A stretch of 64,000 nucleotides of DNA from Chelatococcus sp. YT9 (GTDB lineage Bacteria; Pseudomonadota; Alphaproteobacteria; Rhizobiales; Beijerinckiaceae). The stretch lies in the NCBI RefSeq assembly GCF_018398315.1, contig NZ_JAHBRW010000001.1, forward strand, positions 1,050,001 through 1,114,000, given 5' to 3'. The translations under genes were made by a program, and so were the position numbers. Shown piece by piece: positions 3,086 to 57,207 of the stretch; position 1 is the first letter of the stretch; the number at the start of each line of letters is the position of its first letter. The notes under the pieces were generated by a model that ran no database searches, had not been told where the DNA came from, and saw only the letters and a list, made by a program, of their open reading frames with translations.

Positions 3086-3949
3086 CTAGACATGACCGAA
3101 CCTCCGCCGACTCCAGGCCTGAATAAGGTTGATGAGAAGCAGGCTCGAAAACGAGATCACGAGCATGATCAGCGCGATCGCCGTCGCGCCGGCGTAATCG
3201 AATTCCTCGAGCTTGATGACGATGAGAAGCGGGGCGATCTCGGATACATAAGGCAGGTTGCCCGCGATGAAGATGACCGAGCCATATTCGCCGACGGCCC
3301 GTGCAAAGCCGAGGGCGAATCCCGTGAGGGCTGCCGGCACGAGGGGCGGCAGCATCACCCGCCATACGGTTTGCAGACGGCTTGCGCCGAGCGTCGCGGA
3401 AGCTTCCTCGAGTTCCCTGTCGATCTCTTCGATCAGCGGCTGAACGGTACGCACCGCGAACGGAAGGCTTACAAAGACGAGCGCGACGAAGATGCCGAGC
3501 GGCGTGAAAGCGACCTTTATACCGAAGGGCGCGAGCTGTGCCCCCACCCAGCCGTTCGGCGCATAGATCGCGCCAAGCGCGATGCCGGCGACGGCGGTCG
3601 GCAAGGCGAAGGGCAGGTCAACCATCGCATCGATCAGGCGACGGCCTGGAAAATGATAGCGGGTCAAGACCCAGGCGATGGCGAGACCGAAGATGCTGGC
3701 GAAGCCCGCGGCTGCTAGCGACACGCCGAAGCTTGTCCGGAGTGCCGCGAGGGTCCGCTCCTCAGTGATGATGTCGATGAGCCCCGCAAGACCGAGCGAT
3801 GCCGCCTTGAGCGCCAGTCCGGCCATCGGTATCAACACAATCAAGACCAAATAGACGAGCGTGTAGCCGAAAGCGATGCCAAAGCCCGGAAGCGCGCTCG
3901 GCGCCCGCCAGCGGCGAGACCATGAACTGAGGGCACTGGCCGACGTCAT
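3086..3949 (-). CDS. cysT: Sulfate ABC transporter permease CysT
   Basis: Partner permease of CysW (CysT, also called CysU). About six hydrophobic segments are visible, with an EAA loop at [24 protein letters not shown] and the CysT-type stretch [16 protein letters not shown]. The ATG at 3949 ([10 protein letters not shown]) overlaps the sbp stop as ATGA, which implies translational coupling. An in-frame upstream start exists but would lie inside sbp. Product is 287 residues, normal for the family. Confidence 0.95.
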
Positions 3950-4983
3950 CGCTTGACCTTTACGATCTGATCGAAGATGCCGCCGTTGTCGAAGTGTTCC
4001 TTCTGCACCTTCGTCCAACCCCCAAAGACATCGTCGATGGTGAAGAGCTTGATCTCAGGCAAAGCGGCGAGATCTTCCTTGCGAGCGAATTCCGGCTTGG
4101 ACGGTCGATACTTGTGCTTGGCGATGATAGCCTGGGCCTCGGGCGTATAAAGGAAACTGAGATAGGCTTCTGCCTGCTTGCGGGTGCCCTTCTTGTCGAC
4201 ATTTCCATCGACCAGCGTGACAGGGGGCTCGGCGAGGATAGAGACCGACGGCACGATGATGTCGAATTTGTCGGCCCCGAACTCTGCGGAAGCCAGGAAC
4301 GCCTCGTTTTCCCAGGCAAGCAGCACGTCGCCGAGCTCACGCTGGGCAAAGGTGATCGTTGAGCCCCGCGCACCCGTATCGAGCACCGGCACATTCTTGA
4401 AGAGAGCCGCGACGAATTCCCTGGCCTTCTCCTCGCTCTTGGTCCGGCCAAGCTCGTAGCCCCAGGCCGCGAGATAGTTCCAGCGCGCCCCGCCTGAAGT
4501 TTTCGGGTTCGGGGTGATCACCTGTACGCCGGGCTTGATCAGATCATTCCAATCCTTGATGCCCTTGGGGTTTCCCTTGCGCACCAGGAAGACGATGGTC
4601 GAGGTATAGGGCGAGGAATTGTTGCCAAGCCGCTTTTGCCAATCCTTGGGAATAAGATCTGTGCGATTGGCAATCGCGTCGATATCCGCAGCCAGCGCGA
4701 GCGTGACCACATCGGCATCCAGGCCGTCGATGACCGTGCGTGCCTGGGATCCGGAGCCGCCGTGCGAGGCCCGAACAGCCACCTTCTCACCCGTCTTCTT
4801 CTCGTAATCTGCGGCAAAGGCGGCGTTGATATCGCGATAGAGTTCGCGCGTCGGATCATAGGATACATTGAGCAGCACGGTCTCCGCGCGCGCTTCCCCC
4901 ACGGGCAGAACCGCGGATGCGGCACCGAGGGCCGCGAGCGCCACGACAAACCGGCGCGAGAGCTTGAATGTATTCGTCACCAT
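3946..4983 (-). CDS. sbp: Sulfate-binding periplasmic protein
   Basis: Periplasmic receptor that delivers sulfate (perhaps thiosulfate) to CysTWA. Start at ATG 4983 ([11 protein letters not shown]) follows a strong GAGGAGG ribosome site. Residues 1-33 form a classic signal peptide ending near EARAE. Family signatures are SYDPTRELY at the mature N-terminus and [19 protein letters not shown] in the middle. It is the first gene of its operon. Sbp and CysP share this fold and the sequence alone does not settle sulfate versus thiosulfate preference. Confidence 0.95.
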
Positions 4984-5044
4984 GGCGGCCTCCTCAATGA
5001 TCCAGCTCGACGCGAACCAGTCTGACCGCATTGTTTACGCATAT

Positions 5045-5074
5045 TTCTACATAATCAATATAGAATTTGTAGAA
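5045..5074. promoter_or_regulatory. Inverted repeat in the sbp promoter region
   Basis: TTCTACA and TGTAGAA form perfect 7-bp arms separated by 16 AT-rich bases, 62 bp upstream of sbp. The arms overlap a candidate minus-strand promoter (TTGATT, 17 bp, AACAAT). The half-site resembles the GTAGAT/ATCTAC halves of the palindrome upstream of cysG, so one sulfur regulator might bind both. That link is inference. Confidence 0.4.
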
Positions 5075-5233
5075 TAACAAATTTTACACGACACGGCAGT
5101 TAATTCTCGAGTCCGATGCCTCTTTCCACGCCAGCTGGCCATCAGAGCGCATTATCGAACGCATGAGTGGCAAACTTGTGCCACGGCTGATATACAATGG
5201 ATATATGTGAAAAATCTAATTTTACAGAAACTG

Positions 5234-5262
5234 TTGACTTTCATGAGAGCGTCGTTATGTAT
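5234..5262 (+). promoter_or_regulatory. Candidate sigma-70 promoter of the cysteine-rich leader
   Basis: TTGACT at 5234-5239 is followed after 16-17 bases by TATGTA/ATGTAT at 5256-5262. Transcription would begin near 5268 and give a leader of about 115 nt before the small ORF at 5385. An inverted repeat TGGACC/GGTCCA (5262-5267 and 5287-5292) lies at the start of this transcript. Confidence 0.4.
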
Positions 5263-5340
5263 GGACCCGTGGGATCGGCGAAAGCTGGTCCACCGCGGGA
5301 ATTTGAAAGCAGCTTGCGCCGCGTCACCAAACGCTAAAGC

Positions 5341-5361
5341 GCCACGAAGTGTCTTCGTGGC
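5341..5361 (+). other. Stem-loop just upstream of the leader ORF
   Basis: GCCACGAAG, a TGT loop and CTTCGTGGC make a perfect 9-bp hairpin. It ends 12 bases before the AGGAG ribosome site of the ORF at 5385. There is no following T run, so it looks like a leader structure rather than a terminator. Confidence 0.5.
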
Positions 5362-5384
5362 TCCGGTCATTGCAGGAGATGCGC

Positions 5385-5519
5385 ATGGCACTTTCTCTCT
5401 TGGATCAGACGCCGCCGAGCAAGGCTCCGCGCGCAGCCGGTCTTACTCTCCGCTCCCTGCGAATGTGTCAGTGTCGCCGTAACGGCACACCCATGTGCTG
5501 TTGTAGCCAGCACATCTGA
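5385..5519 (+). CDS. Putative cysteine-rich leader peptide (44 aa)
   Basis: This small ORF has a good ribosome site (AGGAG at 5374-5378, 6 bases before ATG 5385; an in-frame ATG at 5379 is too close). The peptide begins MALSLLDQTPPSKAP and ends RMCQCRRNGTPMCCCSQHI. Five of its last 17 residues are cysteine, three of them consecutive, at codons TGT, TGT, TGC, TGT, TGT. It lies in a structured leader ahead of a 68-residue ORF and the methionine importer genes and diverges from the sulfate transporter. A cysteine-tract leader that senses Cys-tRNA supply, as polycysteine upstream ORFs do in mycobacteria, is the inference. It could also be a chance ORF. Confidence 0.45.
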   Translation: MALSLLDQTPPSKAPRAAGLTLRSLRMCQCRRNGTPMCCCSQHI

Positions 5520-5577
5520 CCAGCCATTCCAGACAATCTGAGCGAGAGAGGCGCCACAGCACGGGCGCAGAACCATC

Positions 5578-5784
5578 ATGTACGACAGTTATCTCATCGA
5601 GGTCGCAGGGCGGCCCGCAGGCATCGTTGCGCGGGACACCCATGGCTATCGGTTCCACGCGTCGGCGCGGCCGTTCTATAGCTTGAACGGGCAAGTCTTC
5701 GCCGATCCATGGGCTGCACAGAAGGCCGCGCAGCGCCATCTTAACGGAACCGGTCGACGTCATGTCCCGCACCGTGTCGACTGA
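5578..5784 (+). CDS. Small hypothetical protein (68 aa)
   Basis: Soluble, no signal peptide or membrane segment. It starts MYDSYLIEVAGRPAGIVARD and contains aromatic-rich FHASARPFYSLNGQVF and an alanine-rich AAQKAAQRH helix. Codon use is like that of neighbouring genes. It lies 58 bases after the cysteine-rich small ORF and 203 bases before metN, all on the plus strand, so it may share their transcript. No clear Shine-Dalgarno sequence precedes the ATG. I do not recognise a family. Confidence 0.5.
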   Translation: MYDSYLIEVAGRPAGIVARDTHGYRFHASARPFYSLNGQVFADPWAAQKAAQRHLNGTGRRHVPHRVD

Positions 5785-5835
5785 TCCCGCACGGTGTTGA
5801 TGGCCGCGCTGCCCCGATGCGCTTGTGGCAGCGCG
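5770..5835 (+). other. Two stem-loops between the 68-aa ORF and metN
   Basis: CACCGTG (5770-5776) pairs with CACGGTG (5790-5796) across the stop of the 68-aa ORF. CGCGCTGCC (5805-5813) pairs with GGCAGCGCG (5827-5835). Neither is followed by a T run. They may be mRNA-stability or attenuation structures ahead of metN. I found no recognisable SAM riboswitch in the remaining 150 bases. Confidence 0.35.
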
Positions 5836-5987
5836 CAAGCCGACGCGGGGCCGTGTTCCATCAAACCCGGTGGCAAGGTCAAGCGTAATCGAGGTGGCGT
5901 TGCGAGCTTATACTTTCGCAGCACAAGCAATCGGCGCGGCTCCACCCGTGTTATTCTGCACCAATCCTGTGAGAAACGAGATCAACC

Positions 5988-7154
5988 GTGAACGCTCTTC
6001 CATTCCATCCGCAGCACGCCGCTCAGCCGCCGTTGGCCGCTGATGATGCGGTCGTGCGTTTCGAGGGCGTCGCTAAGACATTCGCCGCCCGCGGTGGGCA
6101 GACCGCGGTCGCAGCCCTGGAAGATATCGATCTTGCAGTCCGGCGCGGCTCCATTCTCGGCGTCATCGGGCGCAGCGGCGCCGGCAAGTCCACCTTGATC
6201 CGCCTCGTCAATGGGCTGGAGAAGCCGACAGCGGGCCGCGTCTTGGTCGATGGCACCGACGTCGCGCGGCTGCCGGAGAAGGAACTGAGACAGATCAGAC
6301 GCACGATCGGCATGATCTTCCAGCACTTCAACCTGTTGTCCTCTCGCACGGTCTACGACAATGTCGCGCTGCCGCTCGAAATCGCAGGCGCCAGCCGGGA
6401 GGAGATCCGCAAGCGCGTCAGCCCGCTCATCGAACTCGTTGGCCTTGCTGACAAGCGTGACCGCTATCCGGCCGAGCTCTCCGGCGGGCAGAAGCAGCGC
6501 GTCGGCATCGCCCGCGCTCTCGCGACACGTCCCAAGGTCCTGCTGTCGGACGAAGCGACGTCCGCCCTCGATCCCGAGACCACCCACTCGATCCTCGACC
6601 TGCTCGCGACGATCAATGCCGAGCTCAAGCTCACAATTCTCCTGATCACCCATGAGATGGCCGTTATTCGAAGCATCGCGCGTGACGTTGCGGTGATCGA
6701 TAGCGGCCGCATCGTGGAGAAGGGAGACGTCTTTGACCTCTTCACAAGACCGCATCATGCGACGACCCGGACCTTCCTGGCCGCCGAAAGTGGCCGCGCC
6801 CTCCCCGCCTATGTGGCCGCTCGCGTGACCGCCGCGGCCACTCCCGACAGCCAGGCCGTCCTGCGCATCATTTTCAGGGGTTCGCATGCGACCGACCCCG
6901 TGCTGTCGCAGATCACGCGCAACTTCGCGATCGACGTCAATATCCTAGGTGGCACTGTCGACGAGATTGCCGGACGGCCGTTTGGCACATTGATCGTCGC
7001 GGTGCCTGACGACGCCAGCCTGCTGCAACGCATCACCGCCTTCCTCACCGCACGCGGGCTCGACGTAGAGACCTTGGGCTACATAGCACTCGGCGCCGAG
7101 CAAGCCCCGGCAGATGCCGCGCAGAACAAAGGGGGACACAGCCATGTCGCCTGA
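5988..7154 (+). CDS. metN: Methionine ABC transporter ATP-binding protein MetN
   Basis: ATPase of the D/L-methionine importer. Walker [10 protein letters not shown] lies near residue 62, with signature LSGGQKQR, Walker [13 protein letters not shown] and [12 protein letters not shown]-terminal NIL domain (about residues 290-370), the methionine-sensing domain that trans-inhibits MetNI, is present. The start is GTG at 5988 and the first 20 residues are variable. The gene overlaps metI by 11 bp, and metN-metI-metQ is one operon. Length, 388 residues, is slightly above the usual 340-370. Confidence 0.95.
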
Positions 7155-7809
7155 AATCATCCGTCTGATCGCCGCGTCGACGCTCGATACGCTCTATATG
7201 GTCGCAGCCGCGACGGCGATCGGCACGGTGATCGGTCTGCCACTCGGCGTGTTCCTGGCCACGAGCAAGCGCGGTGAACTGCTGTCGGCTCCGCTCGCCA
7301 ACAGTGTTCTCGGCATCATCGTGAATGCCACGCGCTCGACACCCTTCATCATTCTCACCGTGTCGATCATCCCGTTCACCCGCCTTGTCGCAGGCACATC
7401 GATCGGCACGACGGCGGCCATCGTCCCCCTCGCGGTGGCCGCCACCCCGTTCATCGCTCGCCTCGTTGAAGGCTCCATCCGCGAAGTCGACCAAGGCTTG
7501 ATTGAGGCGGCACGCGCCATGGGCGCAAGCCCGGTGCAAATCCTCGCGAAAGTGCTGGTGCCAGAAGCATTACCCGGGATCGTGCTCGGCCTGACGCTCG
7601 CCATCGTCAGCCTCATCGGGTTCTCCGCCATCGTCGGTGTGGTTGGCGGCGGCGGCCTCGGTGATCTCGGCATCCGCTATGGCTACCAGCGCTTCATGCC
7701 GGATGTGATGGCGGCTGTCGTCCTCGTCCTCATCCTTCTCGTGCAAGGCATTCAAAGCCTCGGCGACGCCCTGTCTCGCAAGCTCAACAAGCGCGTGCGC
7801 CACGGTTGA
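7144..7809 (+). CDS. metI: Methionine ABC transporter permease MetI
   Basis: Inner-membrane permease paired with MetN. The ATG at 7144 ([13 protein letters not shown]) follows a GGGGG ribosome site and gives a 221-residue protein, close to the family's 217. Five hydrophobic segments are visible, with the EAA-type loop [27 protein letters not shown] and the conserved stretch [27 protein letters not shown]. An in-frame ATG at 7114 lies inside metN and is less likely. Confidence 0.95.
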
Positions 7810-7851: not shown

Positions 7852-8640
7852 ATGAAATTCTCGTTCTCGACCCTCGCCATCGTGGCCAGCTTTGCACTGG
7901 CGGCGACATCCCTGTCCGCTCAGGCGGAAACGATCAAGATTGGCGTGACGCCCGGTCCGCACGCGCAAATCCTGGAAGCGGTGAAGCCAATTGCCGCCAA
8001 GCAGGGTGTCACGATCGAGATCGTGGAATTCTCCGACTATGTCGTGCCCAATCAAGCGTTGGATTCTGGGGATATCCAGGCCAACTCGTTCCAGCATGAG
8101 CCTTTCCTGGATAACCAGAAAGCCGATCGGGGCTTCAAGATCGAAAATGTGGGCTCGACCGTGACCTTCCCTCTCAGCATCTACTCCAAGAAATACAAAT
8201 CGTGGAATGACATCCCCGACGGCTCCACGATAGCCATCCAGAACGACCCGACCAACGGCGGGCGCAGCCTCCTGCTCCTGCAGGCCAAAGGGCTGATCAA
8301 GCTGAAGGACGGCGTGGGCTTCAAGCCGAGCCCGCTTGACATCACGGATAATCCCAAGAAGCTGAAGTTCCTGGAAATCGAGGCGGCTCAGACCCCCCGC
8401 ACCCTCGATGACGTGGCGGCGGCCTCGATCAACACCAACTACGCGACCTCGGCAGGCATCGATCCGTCGGCGATCATCCTCACCGAGGATGCGAAAGGTC
8501 CCTATGTGAACATCATCGCGGTCCGTAGCGCCGACAAAGACAAGCCGTGGGTGAAGGTACTTGTCGACAGCTACCACACGCCCGAAGTGAAAAGCTTCAT
8601 CGAGAAAACCTTCAAGAACTCCGTGCTCGCGAGCTGGTAA
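7852..8640 (+). CDS. metQ: Methionine-binding protein MetQ (NlpA family)
   Basis: Periplasmic substrate receptor for MetNI. Residues 1-25 are a signal peptide ending SAQAE. The mature protein starts TIKIGVTPGPHAQ and carries family motifs such as GDIQANSFQHEPFLDN, AIQNDPTNGGRSLLLLQ and SINTNYA. Unlike E. coli MetQ it has no lipobox cysteine, so it should be free in the periplasm. It is the last gene of the operon and is followed by a strong terminator. Confidence 0.94.
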   Translation: MKFSFSTLAIVASFALAATSLSAQAETIKIGVTPGPHAQILEAVKPIAAKQGVTIEIVEFSDYVVPNQALDSGDIQANSFQHEPFLDNQKADRGFKIENVGSTVTFPLSIYSKKYKSWNDIPDGSTIAIQNDPTNGGRSLLLLQAKGLIKLKDGVGFKPSPLDITDNPKKLKFLEIEAAQTPRTLDDVAAASINTNYATSAGIDPSAIILTEDAKGPYVNIIAVRSADKDKPWVKVLVDSYHTPEVKSFIEKTFKNSVLASW

Positions 8641-24529: not shown

Positions 24530-25153
24530 TCACCTGCCGTCACGCCCGGCGGCGAGGACCCCGTGCTCTGTGGCGACATAGTCCAGAGGCTGGTCGTGGG
24601 GCTCGGTCGGCACCACCGGCACCTCCTGCATGGCATAGGCGAGACCTATCGTCGTCAGCGGTCCGCTTGCCCTGAGCCTTGCTATCACCCGGTCGAAGAA
24701 GCCGCGGCCATAGCCGAGCCTGTGGCCACGTCGGTCGAAAGCGACGAGGGGAACGAGAAGGATCGCCGGCCGCACCGACGGAGCCCCCGCGTGGGGGCCG
24801 AAGGTACCGAGCCCCACGGATTGAAGCGGATCACCCTCCCTCCACAGATGGAATGAAAGGTCATCATCCACGATCACCGGCAGAGCGGTCGGGACGCGCC
24901 GTTCGGCAAGCGCCGACAGCAAGGGTTTCGGATCGATCTCGCCCCTGATCGGCCAGTAACCGCCGACGGCATCCTGCGGACGAAAAATTGAGAGCTCCAG
25001 CACCCGCCCGGCAAGGGCGGTGCTGGCGGCGACGCCGTGAGAGGATGCAAAGATTTTGCGGGCAGCAAGGACGGAGGCGCGAAGGTCGGACTTGCGCGCC
25101 GCGATCGTTCGATCGTTCAAAGGCTTGACCCGTTGAAAGAAGCGCGGAGCCAC
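24530..25153 (-). CDS. fthC: 5-formyltetrahydrofolate cyclo-ligase
   Basis: ATP-dependent conversion of 5-formyl-THF to 5,10-methenyl-THF, returning folate to one-carbon metabolism. Features are the N-terminal basic helix (RTIAARKSDLRASVLAARK), the substrate region GYWPIRGEIDPKPL and the ATP/phosphate motif VPLVAFDRRGHRLGYGRGFFDR without its last residues. The start is GTG at 25153; a TTG at 25120 is an alternative. The 6S RNA gene ends only 20 bases upstream, the same arrangement as ssrS-ygfA in gammaproteobacteria. Confidence 0.93.
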   Translation of the reverse strand: MAPRFFQRVKPLNDRTIAARKSDLRASVLAARKIFASSHGVAASTALAGRVLELSIFRPQDAVGGYWPIRGEIDPKPLLSALAERRVPTALPVIVDDDLSFHLWREGDPLQSVGLGTFGPHAGAPSVRPAILLVPLVAFDRRGHRLGYGRGFFDRVIARLRASGPLTTIGLAYAMQEVPVVPTEPHDQPLDYVATEHGVLAAGRDGR

Positions 25154-25172
25154 GAAGGCCGTTGGAGTGACG

Positions 25173-25330
25173 ATCCCGGGAACCTACATAAGTAGGTGGG
25201 CGCCGTATGCCCAGGTCCACGGACCCGGCCAGGGACAGCTCCCTAGGAGATCGTAAGGCCCCGGGGAATATGTCTCCTGACGCGCCCCATAGCCCCGCAA
25301 GGACGAAGATAATCGCCCCTTGCCCGGAAT
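25173..25330 (-). ncRNA. ssrS: 6S RNA
   Basis: On the minus strand AUUCCGGG at 25330-25323 pairs fully (one G-U) with CCCGGGAU at 25180-25173 and closes a 158-nt rod-like RNA. The 3' part CUGGGCAUACGGCGCCCACC, then ACUUAUGU-type bases and UAGGUUCCCGGG, resembles alphaproteobacterial 6S RNA. Position between zapA and the cyclo-ligase gene is the classical ssrS position. 6S binds sigma-70 RNA polymerase and damps transcription in stationary phase. The exact ends are inferred from the closing stem. Confidence 0.75.
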
Positions 25331-40999: not shown

Positions 41000-41250
41000 A
41001 CCTCACCTTTCCGGCTCCGGCCGGACGCCGACGTCTCGTAATGAAACATCGACTCCCACCTGGATCCGATATCGCAAGGAGAGCGCCAGTTGCGGCCAGG
41101 CGTAGCGGCCGCCAGGCGGTTTCGGAGCGGGCCAATATCTTGGCCACGAAGGCGAGACGGACGATTGACGCCGCCGGGCGTGTCGGGCCGAAGACGCTGC
41201 CCGGCTCGGTACGATGGCGGAGAGACAGCTTGACGCGCCGGCGACGCCGC

Positions 41251-41276
41251 AAAAAAAAGCCGCCCTGAGGGCGGCT
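41251..41276 (-). terminator. Terminator of the DUF1192 gene
   Basis: On the minus strand AGCCGCCC, a TCA loop and GGGCGGCT are followed by eight T. It lies about 160 bases after the DUF1192 stop. The rest of the 41000-41436 gap holds no recognisable gene or element. Confidence 0.85.
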
Positions 41277-41436
41277 GAAGGTCGAAGCAGGGAGGCGTCA
41301 AAAAGAGTGGACAGGGCCACTCAGCGTCCAGGAAATGGACAGCCTAGTCATATATCGGAAACCTTAATGGACCGTTGCCTGCCAACTCCCGTCAGATGCA
41401 CGCGTCAAAAAGATACAGACAGGGGCCTCAGCCCGT

Positions 41437-57151: not shown

Positions 57152-57157
57152 GTCATT

Positions 57158-57203
57158 CCATCCTTACAGATGGGCGCCTTCCGTTGGGGGAAGGTGTCCC
57201 GCG
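57158..57203 (-). ncRNA. serC leader RNA motif
   Basis: Two adjacent small hairpins in the 50-nt serC leader: CCTTCC/GGAAGG (57194-57189 with 57182-57177) and CATC/GATG-type CCATC/GATGG (57173-57169 with 57162-57158). They are flanked by GGGACA and the serC start 6 bases away. This fits the serC motif described upstream of serC in alphaproteobacteria, whose ligand is not known. Assigned from memory of the motif's shape. Confidence 0.6.
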
Positions 57204-57207
57204 GATG

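Follow-up and report, generated by a model that had tools for sequence, protein, structure and literature searches.

A candidate SAM-II-like riboswitch that may gate a cysteine-codon leader of sulfur-import operons: a proposed two-input RNA device at the metNIQ leader of Chelatococcus

SAM-II riboswitches (SAM_alpha, RF00521; metA motif) bind SAM and are located 5′ of methionine genes (PMC1273637). A survey of 199 proteobacterial genomes from 2014 reported SAM_alpha from no orders other than Rhizobiales and Rhodobacterales, its core target being metY, and the available part of that survey does not name metNIQ among the SAM_alpha targets (PMC4239095); metX, metY, and metZ are known SAM-II targets (PMC4239095; PMC9373788). 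The SAM-II switches of S. meliloti, likewise rhizobial, precede the met genes metA and metZ, the Shine–Dalgarno (SD) sequence within the metA switch is needed for translation, and the accessible text mentions no Cys leader (PMC9373788). SAM-V switches have a SAM-II-like pocket and, in most cases, a two-pair P2a that holds the SD, and they act on translation (PMC6061858). Actinobacterial Cys leaders are short ORFs with Cys codons by the stop, which precede cys genes without a terminator and for which Rho has been suggested; the locus described here resembles them in its short ORF with Cys codons by the stop, but this ORF is preceded by an SD and a SAM-II-like aptamer, whereas no aptamer is mentioned in the available part of that report (PMC1262725). 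Riboswitch-controlled upstream ORFs (uORFs) are also known in M. tuberculosis, namely Mbox-pe20 and B12-ppe2, with Rho acting in the Mbox case, but their ligands are other ones and the accessible portions of the reports describe no run of codons for the regulated amino acid (PMC12810186; PMC11260477). Furthermore, CruR shares with the leaders described here a uORF with Cys and a C>G bubble, and it uses Rho, a factor only proposed for these leaders but backed in CruR by bicyclomycin and in vitro data; it differs in responding to copper and in being a DUF2946 protein of 145 aa with a predicted export and the arrest motif RAPP (PMC9426467).

Here, we describe a leader in Chelatococcus sp. YT9 that can be regarded as a junction of three known kinds, i.e., a SAM-II-like riboswitch, a Cys leader attenuator, and a riboswitch-controlled uORF. 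It lies in a 64,000-nucleotide stretch of contig NZ_JAHBRW010000001.1 (positions 1,050,001 to 1,114,000; hereafter the window, to which all coordinates refer). We consider it probable, at roughly 60%, that a SAM-II-like riboswitch gates the translation of a leader with Cys codons, which in turn attenuates operons for sulfur import, the metNIQ leader thus being a two-input RNA device. At the level of sequence, this reading is supported by the aptamer likeness, a covarying pseudoknot pair, in-frame Cys codons, rare codons, a C>G bubble, and the sulfur genes downstream.

The leader ORF (MALSLLDQTPPSKAPRAAGLTLRSLRMCQCRRNGTPMCCCSQHI; 5385–5519, + strand), called from the window sequence, comprises 44 codons with five Cys codons among the last 17 (starting at 5466, 5472, 5496, 5499, and 5502), just as the original prediction had described it, and the good ribosome site claimed for it is found as AGGAG at 5374–5378 (+), six bases 5′ of the ATG at 5385. 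Likewise present is the 9-bp hairpin (GCCACGAAG/CTTCGTGGC; 5341–5361, +), situated between the aptamer and the leader SD; by eye, hairpins with differing loops occupy the equivalent place in many relatives and are missing from loci L074 and L076. The promoter that had been called strong, TTGACT-N16-TATGTA at 5234–5261 (+), should be termed a candidate, as it is absent from the list of a consensus promoter scan, though TTGAC(T/A), 16 nt, and TA(T/A)GTA are kept by eye in an alignment of four Chelatococcus species. A terminator scan of 4980–6000 returned zero terminators. The remaining predicted layout was borne out, with family matches for metNIQ and for the divergent sulfate-binding protein. 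A small ORF of 68 codons (5578–5784, +) is the first operon gene and encodes an uncharacterized protein with homologues placed after the leader at many loci; metN (5988–7154, +) matches ABC_tran and NIL, its top NCBIfam match being MetN at 392.5 bits, below the cut-off of 499.7; metI (7147–7809, +) matches NF008049 above the cut-off; metQ (7852–8640, +) matches PF03180 and, above the cut-off, TIGR00363; and the divergent sulfate-binding protein (3946–5031, −) matches NF008022 and TIGR00971 above their cut-offs. The locus shows two features of a Cys attenuator, namely a short ORF with an SD and Cys codons near its end and, downstream, genes of the same pathway (MetN, MetI, and MetQ). Two minor observations concern the same region: ATGTGCTG and CAGCACAT at 5493–5515 could pair in a stretch that spans the final Cys codons and the stop codon, one pair becoming G-U in two congeners by eye, and a block around GAGCTTATACTTTCGCAGCACAAGCAATC (5905–5936), 5′ of metN, is near-identical among the four congeners.

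Conservation of the ORF and of its Cys codons, which had been proposed as a check on the original prediction, is indeed found. Among 60 relatives, the ORF is kept by all three genomes of the same genus (G001–G003; E 3e-12, 9e-10, and 7e-7), and in relatives from other genera Cys codons are retained close to the stop. In the four-species alignment, the first codons and parts of the last third are conserved and the middle is variable; Cys28, Cys30, Cys38, and Cys39 are present in 4/4, and Cys40 is confined to the window. A tblastn search of plasmids with the leader peptide returned only two weak matches (E 0.6 and 0.9). About 90–100 nt 5′ of the leader start codon are near-identical in the four species and exceed the ORF in conservation; this part holds the aptamer, likely the first input, whose conservation within the genus surpasses that of the leader ORF. 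The proposal that the leader senses charged Cys-tRNA has thus gained comparative backing from in-frame Cys codons by the stop, the choice of TGT, and the sulfur genes, but it had missed a SAM-II-like aptamer as the likely first input. Polycysteine ORFs, with which the leader had been compared, are said to have been described in mycobacteria by Canestrari in 2020. The comparison holds insofar as the peptide resembles the actinobacterial Cys leaders as presented in the available text (PMC1262725), but here too the aptamer upstream had escaped notice.

The variant SAM-II-like aptamer is placed at 5290–5346 (+; about 5290–5343 by the SAM-II likeness). No Rfam family matches the leader locus at gathering scores; the best open match is SAM_alpha (RF00521) at 5285–5357 with 20.3 bits (E 0.023; gathering 36), and the second is SAM-II (RF01726) with E 2.8. 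The other Rfam matches in the window all lie on the − strand (6S RNA, 25143–25298; BjrC1505 sRNA, 41250–41385; serC leader, 57153–57204). A SAM_alpha search of the whole genome, in which 150 of 933 candidates were scored, did not recover the aptamer. In 16 of 19 relatives' loci, SAM_alpha matched at the aptamer position with 21.5–30.3 bits, all below the cut-off of 36, and in the other 3/19 it gave no match at E 2. Because the gathering score is not reached, the element is treated as SAM-II-like and not as a SAM-II member. The covariance model R1, whose training set includes the window site, scores the window with 75.5 bits at 5290–5346. The likeness to SAM-II lies in P1 and the pseudoknot, in UUU, UUGC, and GCUAAA, and in the methionine genes that follow in part of the class sample, whereas the sub-gathering score, the two-pair outer P2, the Cys leader that comes next in most sampled loci, and the position before metNIQ, sbp, and other genes set the element apart. 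The two pairs of the outer P2 segment in the alphaproteobacterial aptamer recall P2a of SAM-V (PMC6061858).

The P1 5′ strand CGCGG (5294–5298, +) pairs with CCGCG (5319–5323) in 59/59 distinct alignment rows, and since P1 is invariant, it receives no support from covariation. L1 UUU (5302–5304, +) is invariant in alignment A3, as is UUGC, and is read as U10–U12 of SAM-II in the register adopted here. In SAM-II, U11 and U12 belong to triples of the ligand pocket (PMC3764141), and in the same register the pocket bases U11, U12, U20, U21, A45, and A46 of these triples are all present in the window. The P2 5′ strand GCUUGCG (5312–5318, +), placed partly by hand, would form the pseudoknot through GC with 5339–5340 and GCG with 5332–5334, the P2 3′ strand being CGCUAAAGC (5332–5340, +), which includes GCUAAA; the conservation of GCTAA in our sets is partly by construction because loci were anchored on it. 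Both P1 and the H-type pseudoknot are possible in the window, and in the 61-row alignment A3 the paired cells amount to 96.3%. Cells with both sides changed number 11 against 2.8 in shuffles, all within one pair; by the count of pairs with both-side changes (1/10), 480 of 500 shuffles do as well, and by the covariation score none of the 500 does. Among 137 loci that were not chosen by pattern, this varying pseudoknot pair holds in 115, compared with 81.6 under column independence (GC 90, AU 14, CG 8, UA 1, wobbles 2; unpaired 22), and outside GC only 25 of 47 loci pair.

Regarding the ligand, the aptamer occurs directly before metX-, metY-, and metZ-like genes, which are known SAM-II targets, so SAM is the likely ligand. 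The position of G8 in SAM-II is A in the window by the same register and GCUAAG replaces GCUAAA in 13/218 loci; the ligand or the affinity could therefore differ in part of the family. The position changed in GCUAAG aptamers contacts the amino acid end of the ligand in SAM-V by our own alignment to the published element (PMC6061858). Such aptamers, possibly with altered specificity, were seen in L150, L152, L143, L147, and L155 (near 290).

The element is widespread. BLAST with window positions 5270–5400 located it in 78 of 248 family genomes and 20 of 43 genera, its own included. Model R1 gave matches with E ≤0.01 in 176/397 genomes of the order, with bit scores from 86 downward among the matches listed, and matches with E 1e-9 in 67/385 genomes of the class, its own included; the variant is also present in Azospirillum and Niveispirillum. 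Canonical SAM-II switches (GTGGTGATTTG type) account for 13 of the 19 fetched order matches below 40 bits, and several of them precede genes that we read as metZ, metA, or metX. The two aptamer types coexist in single genomes (G448, G439, and G036). The window's own genome carries one strong R1 copy, the next match having E 0.08.

Leaders were called as the ORF with the best SD after the aptamer at each locus, a rule blind to Cys and to the product. A Cys in the last 12 residues was found in 181 of 193 short ORFs (12/193 without), comprising 78/82 in the family sample, 34/37 in the order sample, and 69/74 in the named sample; among the named loci non-identical to earlier ones, the Cys tail is present in 46/50. 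By comparison, the short ORFs after the 13 canonical SAM-II switches have a Cys tail in 1/5. Among non-redundant leaders, e.g., MTGFPLRPAEQLRRSMMCCCRR, MTKTCRR, and MTCLCCCR, 108/118 are Cys-tailed, whereas 200 base shuffles give 39.7 on average and 56 at most, and 68 have two or more Cys compared with 7.2 by shuffling. Within the last 12 codons, TGY triplets are distributed over the three frames as 221:62:16 (p 1e-46), implying that conservation concerns the reading frame and not just the RNA letters. For the final Cys codon, 97 leaders use TGT and 18 use TGC, against TGT 4 and TGC 64 in downstream first genes of at least 150 aa (p 1e-27). Rare codons at a control site suit a sensor of decoding. 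CGA provides 38/104 Arg codons after Cys, 62/352 elsewhere in leaders, and 44/1692 downstream; as CGA is elevated throughout the leaders, its use after Cys is only partly special.

The loci behind these counts were gathered as follows. The 230 loci before the non-redundant count include 24 without a match to the variant pattern, one without an ORF (L238), and 12 with ORFs outside 4–65 aa. The 24 consist of the 13 canonical SAM-II switches, L098 (metA-like gene), L082 (no aptamer in the stretch used), L174 (off type), L167 and L172 (another type), and L077, L086, L128, L130, L144, and L165 (variants that the pattern missed); the 12 consist of apparent direct genes (L052, L120, L203, L222, and L235), wrong starts (L061, L092, L100, and L229), and ambiguous cases (L117, L122, and L241). 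Doubtful leader starts, e.g., L068, L078, L094, and L139, were retained. The named sample used 80 stretches among at least 120, with 25/80 duplicating loci already fetched, and the 60 order-search and 20 class-search loci were hand-picked from longer lists.

The junction of aptamer and leader suggests how the two could be coupled. L150 and L152 have GCTAAGGAGC followed by ATG, with the leader SD inside the pseudoknot (P2 3′) strand, and L074 and L076 have GCTAAAGCGGAG, again with the leader SD inside the P2 3′ strand; in these four loci, judging from the sequence, the leader's SD is the first one within reach of masking by P2. In many other loci, including the window, where the leader SD lies 34 nt 3′ of the aptamer core, a hairpin intervenes with CUCC 5′ of GGAG. 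CUCC at 5361–5364 (+) is thus a candidate anti-SD to GGAG at 5375–5378, and an anti-SD 4-mer occurs in 53 of 104 leaders where shuffling gives 24.4. SAM binding, gating of the leader, ribosome stalling, and the Rho step are the inferred parts of the following scheme. The SAM-II-like aptamer (P1 and pseudoknot) would set whether ribosomes start on the leader ORF. At high SAM, the leader SD would be masked, the leader would not be translated, and the transcript would end early. At low SAM with sufficient Cys-tRNA, the ribosome would run through the leader and leave the C-rich spacer open to Rho, and at low SAM with scarce Cys-tRNA it would stall on the rare TGT codons near the stop and transcription would proceed through the sulfur genes. 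Expression of the operon would accordingly require that SAM and cysteine are both low.

The step after the leader is where the closest competing explanation parts from the proposed one. The post-leader spacer (5520–5577, +) belongs to a region that is C-rich and rut-like set-wide, the C excess being a figure of the whole set and not of this locus: the 60 nt after the stop of 111 leaders contain 38.0% C and 26.7% G, and C minus G after the leader stop is +11.2 points, compared with 1.36 (sd 0.87) at random downstream places, which are mostly coding sequence and not other spacers. TTTTT occurs within 140 nt after the leader in 14/193 loci and within 190 nt of canonical SAM-II aptamers in 8/13, the lengths searched being different. 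By analogy with the actinobacterial Cys leaders, CruR, and the Mbox uORF, a Rho-dependent attenuator perhaps fits best here. Alternatively, the stalled ribosome might rearrange a hairpin before the next SD and so attenuate translation without Rho, which differs from the preferred reading only in the last step and which we regard as doubtful. A hairpin directly 5′ of the next start speaks for it; in the four congeners, it belongs to their consensus fold (GCGCC/GGCGC; 5551–5568, +, coordinates by hand), and one can be made out by eye in Bosea and in Methylobacterium. The set-wide C>G bubble speaks against it, as does the result that no alternative fold common to the groups was detected that would connect the next SD with the Cys codons; from rough alignments, RNAalifold returned none for the groups Bosea, Methylobacterium, and Microvirga.

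Other explanations dispense with Cys-tRNA. The aptamer alone might be the SAM riboswitch of the operon, the short ORF serving only coupling or ribosome loading and its Cys codons sensing nothing. That the element stands directly before some genes with no Cys leader (see below) is in its favor, as is the existence of riboswitch-controlled uORFs (PMC12810186; PMC11260477), but this explanation would leave the in-frame Cys near the stop and the choice of TGT without a reason, and we judge it unlikely. A little less likely still is sensing by the peptide itself, in which the nascent Cys-rich chain would bind a metal (copper) or be oxidized and thereby set arrest and Rho access in a CruR-like manner. 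CruR does combine a CXXC motif with a C>G bubble and Rho, although it is a 145-aa DUF2946 protein with RAPP (PMC9426467). Cys-Arg within the last 12 residues of 79/118 leaders likewise exceeds what a pure codon sensor would need, but the number and spacing of Cys vary among leaders from one Cys to CCCC, the recognized downstream genes serve sulfur, and the choice of TGT points to decoding. Copper sensing by the leader peptide was accordingly considered and ranked low; identity with CruR (DUF2946) was rejected, the leader having 44 aa with neither CXXC nor RAPP and no match in an NCBIfam search. Finally, the variable middle of the ORF would agree with an origin by chance within a conserved 5′ UTR, which the frame test, the shuffles, and the Cys tails in 46/50 non-identical named loci render hardly credible.

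The genes downstream of the leader were also compared beyond the window. By an automatic caller, with Pfam on representatives, 200 first genes include 91 homologues of the 68-aa protein, 26 of MetQ type, 24 MetN-type ATPases, 7 FMN reductases, 6 of sulfate-binding type, 4 flavin reductases, and others; these counts include repeated loci, and three of the four loci of the genus fall in the MetN class since the caller skipped the 68-aa ORF. A further 14/200 we take to be sulfonate-type solute-binding proteins, their 110-aa starts matching no family. The 68-aa protein has no Pfam or NCBIfam family match, only weak Pfam matches, and its AlphaFold model is compact (mean pLDDT 89.9), with no solved relative in a structure search (best E 1.8); at many loci in alphaproteobacteria, one of its homologues separates the leader from metNIQ or sbp. 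The class sample consists of 20 loci from 19 families of other orders, with gene names read from the sequence and not from a family search. In it, the aptamer precedes, with no Cys leader, genes that we read as metZ (L303 and L305; L297 after a 13-aa ORF), metX (L304), metY (L307), cysG (L308), sbp (L296), and cysI (L311). The Cys leader is present in 7/8 operons that begin with metN or the 68-aa (P0002-like) gene and in 0/5 metX/Y/Z loci (p 0.005), a comparison grouped after the loci had been seen and leaving out the other 7 of the 20.

On balance, we lean toward regarding the arrangement as an undescribed module spread across the Alphaproteobacteria, in which a SAM-II-derived riboswitch would regulate an attenuator peptide and not an enzyme, SAM and Cys-tRNA in series would constitute a NOR gate on sulfur import, and the leader would stand before import operons, being absent at the five metX/Y/Z loci. 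A literature search, with most subscription journals outside its reach, turned up no description of a Cys leader that follows a SAM-II aptamer. If the reading is correct, a metabolite aptamer and codon-based attenuation would be united in one leader common to many genera, and this would explain alphaproteobacterial control of methionine, sulfate, and perhaps sulfonate import. It also points to a SAM-II-like subfamily hidden by the cut-off of Rfam, and the natural variants with and without the leader provide a test set for riboswitch gating of an attenuator. A separate aptamer subtype, GGGATTTGC...GCTAAAAGC, was observed in L097, L105, L109, L110, and L111 with Cys-poor leaders such as MVYVLYFATRQLRRLSAFLLWTRS. 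The leaders of L105, L109, and L110 have one Cys or zero, and their first gene is presumably a Met-sulfoxide reductase, its first 110 aa having no NCBIfam match. L097 lies 5′ of a flavin-reductase type gene and L111 lies 5′ of a P0002-like gene.
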